Positions 43,488 to 47,420 of a stretch of DNA of 64,000 nucleotides are shown here, piece after piece. Each line of letters opens with the position of its first letter. Position 1 is the stretch's first letter. Made by a program: the position numbers and the translations under genes. The stretch spans positions 124,001 through 188,000 of the forward strand of contig CADCKQ010000002.1 in NCBI GenBank assembly GCA_902802045.1, in the 5' to 3' direction. This DNA comes from Oscillospiraceae bacterium. GTDB taxonomy: Bacteria > Bacillota > Clostridia > Oscillospirales > Oscillospiraceae. The notes below the pieces were generated by a model, which was not told where the DNA came from, did no database searches, and worked only from the letters and a program-made list of their open reading frames with translations.

Positions 43488-46400
43488 TCAGTTTTCGGAG
43501 AATGATTTGTAAATAATGATCTCTACGCTGCCTCCGTGCATACTGACCCTGACTTCATCTGCAAGTCGCGCGACAATGGATGCCTCCAGCTCGTCCCATT
43601 TTTCTGCCGCTTCGGCATCCTCCGCACGCTGGCTCTCTATATCGGACTTGTAGGCGCTCATTGTCCACTCATCGGGAATCTCCGTTTGAGGCATATCTTC
43701 CCGTGCGTTCTCGCCGGACCCGGGATCGTCGGCATCAAGGAGAAGCTTCACGTAGATCCGGTCCAGAAGTCTGTTCATAAAGCCTTTAGCAGCGGCGTTT
43801 GTACCGCTTGTGGAAACAGAGAGGAGACGTTCGCGTATCTCCATCGTCATTTGCAGGAATGTACGCATATGAAGCTCATAGAGCGTATCATGGACAACAA
43901 CCCAATAACCGGCTTCCACATCTCCGGCAATGCTTCGAAGCATTCCGAAAAGTTCCTCGGCAAGAAGCCTCAGGTGCAGCGCGGACCTGCGGTTCAGGCC
44001 TTTATATTCAGCGAGCTGTTCTGTTACATGCAATGCGTTGTCCATTCCCGCTCCAAGGCTGGATACATTGATACTTATCGTCTGATTCCGGGAGGCTTCC
44101 CACCAGGCTGAAATGTTCAGATCTGTATCCTTGAAGTCTGCCATAGTCATACGGCCTTCCGGATTGAGTGTGGATACGGTAACATTCGGGAAAGGTACTC
44201 CGATATTGTTGCGATAGAAGATCTTAAGCAGTTCGCGGTTAAGGTAACGCGTGACTCCTTTGATGTTTTCTTCGGTGCATTCGGCTACGACCGCAATTTC
44301 CACGCCGCTATCGCCCAGCGTGTTAATACCCAGATACTTCGGGTCGGCGAGGATATTCGGATTATCCTTCCGGAGCTTCGGCAAGTCACGGCGCAGAACA
44401 GCTTCCACATATTCAATATCCTGTCCGTATTCGATGCTGATCTTGCTTAAAGCGAAGGAGTTTCTCTTGGTCATGTTCAATACGCCGGATATCTCGCTGT
44501 TGTTGTATATCTTGACGTTGCCATCAGGCGCGAGGATCTTGGTAGTACGAAGGCCGATATCGGTTACGGTTCCGCGATAGTTCCCGACGGTAACGATGTC
44601 GCCGATCCGGAATTCGCCTTCAAACACGAAGAAGATGCCGGCGAGAATATCTTTGATCAGACTCTGTGCTCCAAAGCCTATAATCAGGGAGAGTACTCCG
44701 GCGCTCGCGAGCAGACCGGTGGGATTAGCGCCAACAAGGTAAAGACAGAAGAAAATGGCTCCTATCGCACCGCCATATCTGACAACAGAGATCATCAGGT
44801 TTCCGATGGTTTTGCTTCGTGTTCCAAGCAGAGAGGAGATACTGAGAAGAGGGTAGCGGATCAGCGCAACTATGATTTTCACAAAGATAAATACGAGAAC
44901 GCAGGCACTGACGGCAAAGATATTAAATCCGCGATCCCAGTCACCGCTGATTATATAGCGTATAATGGAATATTCGGGTAGCAGAGTTTTGGCGCTCAGT
45001 ATTGTGAAAGCAAGATAGACAACCAGAGCAATCGAAAAAACATCTATCAATCTGGAGAGTTTCTGCTCGGGCGTTCTATTCCACCATGGGATCCACCGGT
45101 GATTCCAGCGCATAGAAATATCCGAAGGGGATGCTTTATGCCCGTATGGAGACAGCATGTCGATAAGCGAACGGACGAAACTGTTATTTCCGGTATCATC
45201 ATTGATCGTCGCGTAGAGCGTTTCTTCTTCCTCGGTCGTTAATGTGACGGTTACGGAGAGAAACAGTATCAGAAGCATACTTGTAAGCGACGTCATCAAT
45301 GCGATCCGCGTACGAGACTGGTACATCTCTCCGCGCGGAATCAGCATCGTGATGTGATAACCGTCCCCGTATCGTGAATAGATGAAACTGACATCTCCAT
45401 TAACACGGGAGAAACCGTAGTATTCATTTGGAGAAAAGGCTTTGCCGGATATGCCGATATCCTCCGCTTTCATACCGATGTTTCCTTCAAAGGGGGAATA
45501 CAGGCAGATATGATCCGCACTGTTGTCAAACAACATGAAGGACTCATCGCTCTCAGCGTATGAAGAGAACAGAGATCCTGTCTCGCCGGAAGAAAGACCT
45601 GTCAGCTCATTGAGAAGTCCGATCTGCAGGAGAGACCGGTGAGCCGTAACCGCTGGAAGATCTCCGGGGTCGCTGCTGTTCTCATATTCCCGGCGGGAAA
45701 GGTATACGGTATTACCCTGTTCGTCAAGAGAGGTATAATAATGGAATGCAACGCCGATGTACTGGACAGTGTCACCCATATCGCTCTCCCGCATCTCCTG
45801 GATAAGGATGTCCTTCCTGCCGTCGAGGACCTGCTGGAACGGGTAAGATTGGTCGGCAGGATCCCGGCTGAGGGTGAAAAACCAGTTTTCGGTATTGGTG
45901 GCGATCGTACGTCCGTTTTCGTTGAATAGATAAATGGATTCCAGACCGTTCATTTCACAAAGTTCCTTCAGACGGGGCGAGAAGGAAACGGATCTGAGGC
46001 GGTTTCCCTCTTCATCCGAATAATACTGCCGTACACCTTCTTCATCCAGGTAAGAGTATTCATGATCGGCAGGCTCGTTCAGAACAGAAGGATCTTCTTC
46101 AAGCATGTAGGCGATGAGAAGCGCTTTGGAAAGATAACGGTCATCGTGACTCTCCTGAATCTTTTCCCGGGTCTCAACAGCGTCCTCGTAACGCTCTGAC
46201 ACCTCATCCAGCGCTACTACAGCTTTTCTCGCGGTTTGGGATATTTCAAGCAGGGTCTGGGAATAAAAGGATATCGCGAAAAGGAGCAGCGCGCCTGAGA
46301 TCATCAGAGGAAACACTTTCTGGAAGATAGTTATATCAAAGATGATCGGGCTGCCGATCCACCTGTATATGATCTTTTTCTTGGTATCCACCGCATTCCG

Positions 46401-47420
46401 GATACAATCGTTACGAACAATGACCGTATATACGAGGCACAGAAACATGATCAGCAGGAAGCTTGCGACAGTCCAGTTAAGCACGTATCTGTCATTTCTG
46501 AAGACCTTGCTTGTTTCTGTCGCTGCACAGATAACAGTTCCGTCTTCAAGTACTTCAGATACGCAATAATACTTTGTACCGCGTATAGTTTCCACACCCG
46601 CATAATCCGGGTTCAGCGCGTCACGGGAGAGTCCTGCTTCGAAAGCATCGGTACCTGTCAGTACCTCATCGCCGTTCTTGTAGAAGAGAAATGTACCGTC
46701 CTCGGCATTTACAGCGAACATAAAGCCTTCGTTTCCGACAGAAGCCCGGCTAAGTATCTGTTCTACATCTGCCAGTGAGTCAAAAGCCAGCTGGCGGGTT
46801 CCGGATCTCACTCCGAGCACCAGAGTATAGGCTTTATTCCTGTAGCGGGTATTGAGCGAATAGTAGTAAACGCGGTCACTGCCTTCGCCTTCGATAAGAG
46901 GAGCAACGCCTCCGTCTTCATTCCTTGTGCCTTTCATGAGTCTGTCGCGGGTGTCCGCAGACATGAGCCCGAGATCGGTAAGTGCCTTCTGAGAATCCTC
47001 GGGGGAAGGCGAGACATATACACGCCCGTCCTGCAACAGCAGGAAAAGGTGATCCGAGTCAGCTCGTTCCGCGAGATCACTGAAGATGGCAGAGCGCTCG
47101 CTTTCCGTGGACGAATCGAGTTGGTCAAAGCCGCCATTTGACAGGATAGTCCGGAGATCGTCGAGCATATCCTGATTTCCGTCGTGGAATAAGGATGACA
47201 GATCTTCTGCGGTCTGAGAGTTTTGATTCAGTGATGAAGTGACCTGTTTCAGCGCGAGCTGGCTGTTTTGCCATTGCCTGGAAAGCGAAGTCCGGTGCTG
47301 CATATTCCGCAGAAACAGTGTGATGCACACCGCGCCAATGATAATCAGCAGGGTATTGATCGTCACCTTTATGAAAAACAGCCGGTTCGCTCTCTTCCTT
47401 ATGTCATTCCTTATCCGCAT
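43488..47420 (-). CDS. Multidomain sensor-mechanosensitive channel-RsbW-like fusion
   Basis: 1310 residues. Segments in order: a membrane helix at 13-37; an extracytoplasmic sensor-like region (38-314); two helices (about 315-388); a second extracytoplasmic region (389-704; SIYLFNENGRTIATN is PAS/Cache-like); and further helices near 705-728, 790-810, 833-854 and 880-898. Then follows a complete MscS pore helix and beta domain, GLLASAGVLSLIIGFGAQSL (901-920) and DIVTVGNYRGTVTDIGLRTT (941-960). The C-terminus (about 1110-1310) resembles the RsbW anti-sigma ATPase fold: ISINVSSLGAGMDNALHVTE, then LHLRLLAEELFGMLRSI, and LADEVRVSMHGGSVEIII at the end. The G-box between is not recognisable. A putative stimulus-gated channel with a regulatory tail; single gene with AAAGGAGA before the ATG. 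Confidence 0.85.
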   Translation of the reverse strand: MRIRNDIRKRANRLFFIKVTINTLLIIIGAVCITLFLRNMQHRTSLSRQWQNSQLALKQVTSSLNQNSQTAEDLSSLFHDGNQDMLDDLRTILSNGGFDQLDSSTESERSAIFSDLAERADSDHLFLLLQDGRVYVSPSPEDSQKALTDLGLMSADTRDRLMKGTRNEDGGVAPLIEGEGSDRVYYYSLNTRYRNKAYTLVLGVRSGTRQLAFDSLADVEQILSRASVGNEGFMFAVNAEDGTFLFYKNGDEVLTGTDAFEAGLSRDALNPDYAGVETIRGTKYYCVSEVLEDGTVICAATETSKVFRNDRYVLNWTVASFLLIMFLCLVYTVIVRNDCIRNAVDTKKKIIYRWIGSPIIFDITIFQKVFPLMISGALLLFAISFYSQTLLEISQTARKAVVALDEVSERYEDAVETREKIQESHDDRYLSKALLIAYMLEEDPSVLNEPADHEYSYLDEEGVRQYYSDEEGNRLRSVSFSPRLKELCEMNGLESIYLFNENGRTIATNTENWFFTLSRDPADQSYPFQQVLDGRKDILIQEMRESDMGDTVQYIGVAFHYYTSLDEQGNTVYLSRREYENSSDPGDLPAVTAHRSLLQIGLLNELTGLSSGETGSLFSSYAESDESFMLFDNSADHICLYSPFEGNIGMKAEDIGISGKAFSPNEYYGFSRVNGDVSFIYSRYGDGYHITMLIPRGEMYQSRTRIALMTSLTSMLLILFLSVTVTLTTEEEETLYATINDDTGNNSFVRSLIDMLSPYGHKASPSDISMRWNHRWIPWWNRTPEQKLSRLIDVFSIALVVYLAFTILSAKTLLPEYSIIRYIISGDWDRGFNIFAVSACVLVFIFVKIIVALIRYPLLSISSLLGTRSKTIGNLMISVVRYGGAIGAIFFCLYLVGANPTGLLASAGVLSLIIGFGAQSLIKDILAGIFFVFEGEFRIGDIVTVGNYRGTVTDIGLRTTKILAPDGNVKIYNNSEISGVLNMTKRNSFALSKISIEYGQDIEYVEAVLRRDLPKLRKDNPNILADPKYLGINTLGDSGVEIAVVAECTEENIKGVTRYLNRELLKIFYRNNIGVPFPNVTVSTLNPEGRMTMADFKDTDLNISAWWEASRNQTISINVSSLGAGMDNALHVTEQLAEYKGLNRRSALHLRLLAEELFGMLRSIAGDVEAGYWVVVHDTLYELHMRTFLQMTMEIRERLLSVSTSGTNAAAKGFMNRLLDRIYVKLLLDADDPGSGENAREDMPQTEIPDEWTMSAYKSDIESQRAEDAEAAEKWDELEASIVARLADEVRVSMHGGSVEIIIYKSFSEN

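Follow-up and report, generated by a model that had tools for sequence, protein, structure and literature searches.

An MscS-family channel fused to two dCache-like sensors and a probable pseudo-RsbW domain in an Oscillospiraceae bacterium

Introduction

Channels of the MscS family are mainly known as tension valves. In bCNG channels, the MscS core is followed at the C-terminus by a cyclic-nucleotide-binding domain, which is a precedent for a regulatory cytoplasmic domain behind such a core. These channels were reportedly described by Caldwell in 2010 and Malcolm in 2012, both cited in PMC4560390. Here we describe a 1310-residue protein encoded in a 64-kb stretch of an Oscillospiraceae genome (GCA_902802045.1, contig CADCKQ010000002.1, positions 124,001 to 188,000; hereafter the window), in which an MscS channel follows two extracytoplasmic dCache-like regions and precedes a C-terminal domain that is probably a pseudo-RsbW. 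Whereas the added domain of bCNG channels binds a small molecule, the one in the window resembles a protein-binding partner-switch domain. Our favoured reading, to which we give a probability of about 0.45, is that the MscS channel has been turned into the effector of an RsbW/RsbV-type partner switch, with the channel as the output.

Partner switches classically control sigma factors (PMC8256260), and RsbW-like/STAS switches with non-sigma outputs are also known, as in BtrV/BtrW and in Vibrio fischeri (PMC8256260). SiaB-SiaC, SypE-SypA and BtrW-BtrV all join an RsbW-like protein to a STAS partner and have outputs other than sigma factors, like the switch proposed here for the window. To our knowledge, none of these is fused to an ion channel, in contrast to the window domain. 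Among the titles and abstracts listed from the open-licence PMC literature, nothing relevant concerned MscS with an RsbW/HATPase, partner-switch or Cache domain. A preliminary description of this DNA, made from the letters alone, knew of no named system with this domain order. Each module is known singly; the novelty lies in their combination, on a domain family that is unnamed.

Results and Discussion

A single fused gene inherited across genomes

The open reading frame (ORF) at 43488-47420 lies on the minus strand, starts with ATG and encodes 1310 amino acids (aa), while the plus strand across these positions is broken by many stops. From the N-terminus, the product consists of a transmembrane helix (TM), a dCache-like sensor, a TM, a linker, a TM, a second dCache-like sensor, a TM, the MscS channel, a linker and the putative pseudo-RsbW domain. 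The features are as follows, with models from AlphaFold2 (AF2).

43488..47420, minus strand: whole gene, double-dCache / MscS / probable pseudo-RsbW, 1310 aa (ORF, full-length orthologues)
47307..47372, minus strand: TM1, residues ~17-38 (hydropathy, centre at residue 28 in orthologues)
46482..47306, minus strand: extracytoplasmic sensor 1, dCache-like, residues ~39-313 (dCache_1 at 65-269 below cut-off, AF2, Foldseek)
46407..46481, minus strand: TM2, residues ~314-338 (hydropathy, centre 326)
46260..46334, minus strand: TM3, residues ~363-387 (hydropathy, centre 372)
45309..46259, minus strand: extracytoplasmic sensor 2, dCache-like on weaker evidence, residues ~388-704 (dCache_1 E 0.026 alone, AF2)
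45237..45308, minus strand: TM4, residues ~705-728 (hydropathy, centre 715)
44166..44906, minus strand: MscS channel core, residues 839-1085 (Pfam, NCBIfam and PDB matches; pore helix SAGVLSLIIGFGAQSLIKDILAG)
44085..44165, minus strand: linker and fusion joint, residues 1086-1112, ~27 residues (unfused orthologues stop here or just beyond)
43491..44084, minus strand: C-terminal domain, probably pseudo-RsbW (Bergerat-fold), residues 1113-1310, ~198 residues (AF2, Foldseek, motif loss, stand-alone homologues)

The 1310-residue fusion architecture is well supported. Full-length fused orthologues were found in three separate metagenome-assembled genomes (MAGs): G271 (JAFRMX010000023) at 95% identity, G274 (JAFSNA010000142) at 51-52% and L106 (JAFYCG010000229) at 41-68% depending on the region, with 47-64% for the N-terminal and channel parts (G and L numbers are our own handles). 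Because both close and distant orthologues are full length, the gene is real and the fusion inherited. The preliminary description had proposed one fused protein and a look at related genomes; the strand, which it did not give, is the minus strand. Between the window gene and G271, the ratio of nonsynonymous to synonymous substitution rates (dN/dS) is 0.08 overall, 0.12 in the C-terminal domain and 0.21 in the linker, and all parts are therefore under purifying selection. The source is a draft genome of 11 contigs and ~96% completeness, in which an assembly artefact, a missed stop or a frameshift could have produced a fusion. However, the identical joint occurs in four full-length fused genes from separate MAGs that have diverged by up to ~50%, which leaves such an artefact a negligible chance, and we rejected it.

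The channel and its extracytoplasmic sensors

The sequence marks the channel unmistakably as a member of the MscS family. The preliminary description had placed the pore and beta domain at 901-960 and advised an HMM search against MS_channel; that model (PF00924) matches the beta domain at 921-982 (E 9.8e-15), the NCBIfam model MscSThanab matches 840-1083 (E 1.5e-40), and PDB matches include 3t9n (E 1.4e-33) and 3udc (~1e-33). TMs are centred at ~845, 884 and 909, with an additional TM at ~800 ahead of the core. The pore helix SAGVLSLIIGFGAQSLIKDILAG, whose residues were assigned by eye, is rich in small residues, has a hydrophobic constriction and is conserved across orthologues. MscS is the best-conserved part of the protein (67-68% identity to G274 and L106, the more distant of the fused orthologues), and both the pore helix and the cytoplasmic cage are intact and well conserved. 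Pore helix, beta domain and cage are thus shared with the MscS family, from which the window protein differs by the two dCache-like domains and extra TMs in front and the pseudo-RsbW domain behind. Another MscS match in the same genome, an ordinary-sized open frame of 278 aa, is 23% identical.

Two extracytoplasmic regions, proposed earlier at residues 38-314 and 389-704, are bracketed by hydrophobic helices at ~28/326 and ~372/715. A dCache_1 match at 65-269 in the N-terminal 760 residues has an E-value of 1.4e-5 in the window protein and 2.3e-7 in the best orthologue, with a score of 25.3 bits that lies under the Pfam curated cut-off of 45. Sensor 2 scanned alone gave dCache_1 at E 0.026, and sensor 1 excised and scanned alone gave no dCache_1 match. 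In the AF2 model of the N-terminal part (pLDDT 59, which is low; four-sequence alignment), each region forms a long helix followed by two PAS-like alpha/beta modules. Foldseek searches with this model returned the dCache ligand-binding domains of Mlp24, DctB, PctA and Tlp3 at E ~1e-7, as matches that cannot be assigned to sensor 1 or sensor 2. The earlier suggestion of sensor folds is borne out by these models: both regions appear to be dCache-like sensors, by fold more than by sequence, with the weaker case for sensor 2. Known dCache domains (DctB, Mlp24/Mlp37, PctA, Tlp3) sit mostly on chemoreceptors or kinases, in contrast to the tandem pair that precedes a channel here.

The C-terminal domain has an RsbW-like fold and a lost ATP site

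The C-terminal domain matched no Pfam or NCBIfam model. HATPase_c_2 (PF13581), the search proposed in the preliminary description, did not match the window protein and hit only 1 of 32 members of the domain family (E 0.2); a PDB hmmsearch with the domain likewise gave no HATPase match. Since these searches and an hhalign comparison all failed, the RsbW assignment is drawn from the fold. The AF2 model (pLDDT 80.6, pTM 0.76, 85 sequences) found its best Foldseek matches in RsbW, SpoIIAB and UsfX (6m37, 8ih8, 1l0o and 1til, probability 1.00, target TM-scores ~0.6-0.77, identity ~10%), and the top 15 matches are all RsbW/SpoIIAB/UsfX or the sigF anti-sigma complex. SiaB is a weaker match. Structure prediction thus points to the fold that had been suspected from RsbW-like sequence ends.

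The absence of a DxGxG box and a possible loss of ATP binding had also been suggested. Among 85 homologues the N-box Glu is present in all, whereas the N-box Asn and DxGxG are found in none and GxG in 4. Of 41 true HATPase_c_2 copies at these loci, 39 retain E...N and only 4 a strict DxGx[GA], so the N-box Asn is the stronger test. As every ATP-binding motif but the N-box Glu is gone in these 85 relatives, the domain is probably a pseudo-RsbW, that is, an RsbW fold without ATP-binding residues. Invariant positions peculiar to the family are E1155, E1156, D1276, E1279, S1281, D1288 and K1305, and G274 and L106 keep them. Compared with RsbW/SpoIIAB/UsfX (PF13581), the window domain shows the same strand-helix order; it differs by the missing N-box Asn and DxGxG, the near-absence of GxG, the low identity, a long variable insert, its invisibility to Pfam and NCBIfam models, and its fusion to a channel.

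Relatives of the domain are mostly stand-alone genes in partner-switch loci

A genome scan seeded with a 10-sequence alignment of the domain gave at least 597 pattern matches and at least 573 confirmed relatives, which belong to a family of domains with the RsbW fold but no ATP site, unnamed in the databases searched (Pfam, NCBIfam). The best 80 loci, which were taken further, come from MAGs of Clostridia and other Firmicutes, mostly from ruminant guts, and no relatives were found in viral contigs. The domain occurs in 28 of the 102 genomes of the genus and in 37 of 394 sampled genomes of the order. The majority of copies are stand-alone genes of ~200 aa, and 52 of 73 stand-alone loci have a same-strand STAS gene within 250 bp; within 7.5 kb, 31 of them have a SpoIIE phosphatase gene and 33 a true HATPase_c_2 gene. 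The L088 operon, confirmed by Pfam, reads STAS, domain, STAS, SpoIIE and STAS::APH::HATPase_c_2. RsbW/SpoIIAB/UsfX and many of the stand-alone pseudo-RsbW homologues, unlike the window gene, are alike in being encoded beside STAS proteins and SpoIIE phosphatases.

This neighbourhood bears on the anti-sigma role that had been suggested for the C-terminal region: the fold stands, and a STAS protein is a likelier partner than a sigma factor. A true anti-sigma factor or kinase, holding a sigma factor or ATP at the membrane with the channel mainly as an anchor, would fit the RsbW/SpoIIAB fold and the invariant N-box Glu. We nevertheless consider it improbable, given the loss of the remaining ATP-site residues throughout the 85 homologues, the conserved neighbours (STAS, SpoIIE and kinase genes) and the conservation of pore helix and cage in the best-conserved part of the protein.

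Several other arrangements were seen at these loci. The STAS::APH::HATPase_c_2 fusion (~520-530 aa) is recurrent in partner-switch operons (L088:6536-8128, L068:9697-11250 and many other loci), often followed by a PHP-domain gene, and the genome of the window has a STAS::APH-type fusion without the HATPase (L174:6840-8090). Four STAS and three pseudo-RsbW genes alternate at L079:6297-9251. At L032:5238-9215, downstream of genes for STAS and for a stand-alone pseudo-RsbW domain, lies the gene of a dCache-type hybrid histidine kinase of 1325 aa (HisKA, HATPase_c, receiver and weak Hpt, with dCache_1 in two stretches); a gene upstream was identified by eye as encoding a MATE-like transporter. A 1002-aa protein at L111:5529-8537 carries seven predicted TMs, HD_5 and a C-terminal pseudo-RsbW domain. 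Proteins of ~740-780 aa with two tandem C-terminal copies are encoded at L070:3910-6126, L071:2732-4957, L072:6101-8452 and L073:6582-8801; the first has an Mbeg1-like (PF11187) domain in front, and the other three share this layout.

The domain has joined MscS channels at least twice

The double-dCache fused channels number four. A second group of fused channels is compact (L067, L068, L069 and L095; 452-552 aa), with three TMs, the domain directly behind the cage and no extracytoplasmic sensor. Well-supported branches of the MscS tree lie between the two fused groups and require two or more changes, which indicates that the domain joined MscS channels at least two times independently. Such convergence speaks for a function linked to the channel.

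At L068, a same-strand run of genes encodes SpoIIE, STAS::APH::HATPase_c_2, PHP, DUF218 and, at its end, the compact MscS::domain fusion. A fused channel that ends a partner-switch operon favours the channel as the output. The DUF218 proteins at L068:7539-8747 and L062:10279-11490 are 52% identical and precede two non-orthologous MscS::pseudo-RsbW fusions, the compact one of L068 and the fused channel of G274.

Orthologues of the window channel in G230, G277, G229 and G279 are similar up to the joint and then end, and these genomes gave no match to the domain. A single branch (94/98) of the channel tree, whose root is unresolved, splits fused from unfused copies. Such unfused orthologues would suit a domain that is vestigial or a structural add-on, stabilising the cage of a ligand-gated or ordinary mechanosensitive channel, as would the somewhat faster evolution of the domain (dN/dS 0.12 against 0.08). 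However, a value of 0.12 still means strong constraint, the residues invariant in stand-alone homologues are retained in the fused copies checked, and the fusions arose independently; we give the add-on a slim chance.

Possible partners in the same genome

In its own genome, the channel carries the sole copy of the domain that was found. The genome has a free STAS gene at L173:9108-9407, whose product carries conserved serines in the motif YISSAGLR, with a dCache-HAMP-SpoIIE-HATPase_c_2 gene ~1.3 kb upstream on the same strand. The STAS protein is 59-67% identical to those encoded next to stand-alone domain copies in other genomes, and the SpoIIE sensor shares 64% identity over 860 aa with the product of an L076 gene that is flanked there by the domain and STAS. 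Within the genus, such a STAS occurs in 27 of 28 domain-bearing and 55 of 74 domain-less genomes (Fisher p 0.011, for genomes that are not phylogenetically independent). From these counts, the domain seems to depend on STAS and not the reverse.

Beside the STAS and SpoIIE sensor genes (L173:3946-11000) are genes for several short peptides whose leader end is VSGG/VAGG-like, for two large transporters (one confirmed as ABC) and for a short membrane-anchored fragment. This region resembles a peptide-export locus and is common to G274 and G221.

A proposed link between the channel and a partner switch

The domain order suggests that the channel is directly coupled to a stress-signalling switch of the bacterium. 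In the MscS heptamer, seven subunits would each hang one pseudo-RsbW domain under the cytoplasmic cage. Because the RsbW fold is kept and the ATP site lost, the domain would not phosphorylate STAS proteins; it may instead serve as the docking receptor for a STAS (RsbV/SpoIIAA-like) protein. SpoIIE-type phosphatases and true HATPase_c_2 kinases would determine the phosphorylation state of this STAS protein in trans. Some of these enzymes bear a dCache sensor of their own, such as the SpoIIE sensor encoded near the free STAS gene. Docking or release of the STAS protein could then alter how easily the channel opens, and the two extracytoplasmic dCache domains could add direct ligand control. The architecture and its conservation, the loss of the ATP motifs, the STAS, SpoIIE and kinase neighbours of stand-alone copies and the repeated fusion to MscS are observations; we infer STAS binding, the heptamer geometry, the direction of signalling and conduction itself. 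The channel as output draws its main support from L068, where a compact fusion closes a complete partner-switch operon, and from the convergence.

Several observations weigh against this. The window gene adjoins no STAS, SpoIIE or sigma gene. Many genomes of the genus that lack the domain have the STAS type of the window genome as well, at up to 73% identity, so the STAS protein is not an exclusive partner; this weakened our candidate pairing of the genome's own STAS with the channel domain alone. The four close orthologues without the domain show that the channel can work without it. In addition, hhalign of the domain against true HATPase_c_2 copies gives a probability of 4%, and the Foldseek E-values are modest (best 1.6e-3, query TM-score ~0.4). 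Furthermore, genome neighbourhood cannot tell output from input.

The main rival reverses the direction: a dCache ligand or membrane tension would alter the cage, and the pseudo-RsbW domain would capture or release a STAS or anti-sigma partner, so that transcription or another switch target is the output. Numerous sensor proteins begin with a dCache domain, and the SpoIIE sensor encoded in this genome is one of them; sigma factors are the classic targets of partner switches (PMC8256260), and a sigma-70-type factor is encoded a few genes upstream of the fused gene in G274. We regard this reading as rather unlikely, since the compact fused channels have no extracytoplasmic sensor, the operon of one of them already supplies a SpoIIE phosphatase and a kinase, and no sigma gene was seen beside the window gene or among the scanned L068 genes. 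No regular sigma-factor partner was found, at loci that were not systematically scanned for sigma factors.

If the channel is indeed the output, the joint between MscS and partner switch, which arose no fewer than two times and is maintained by selection, would provide a stress switch with a direct, fast and non-transcriptional output; if it is the input, the same joint would feed a mechanical or chemical signal directly into the switch. Going further, we tentatively suggest that these are ion channels of a new class, with gating by a protein partner switch. In this class the pseudo-RsbW domain would be a portable STAS-reading module, fused repeatedly to MscS and also to HD-type and Mbeg1-like proteins, and STAS phosphorylation would open or close the channel without release of a sigma factor.

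Elsewhere in the window, positions 2241-27831 look phage-derived: several ORFs match PHROG families near full length (for example phrog_21263, phrog_27849, phrog_15585, a primase/helicase and an exonuclease V), and the guanine-cytosine content is above that of the rest.

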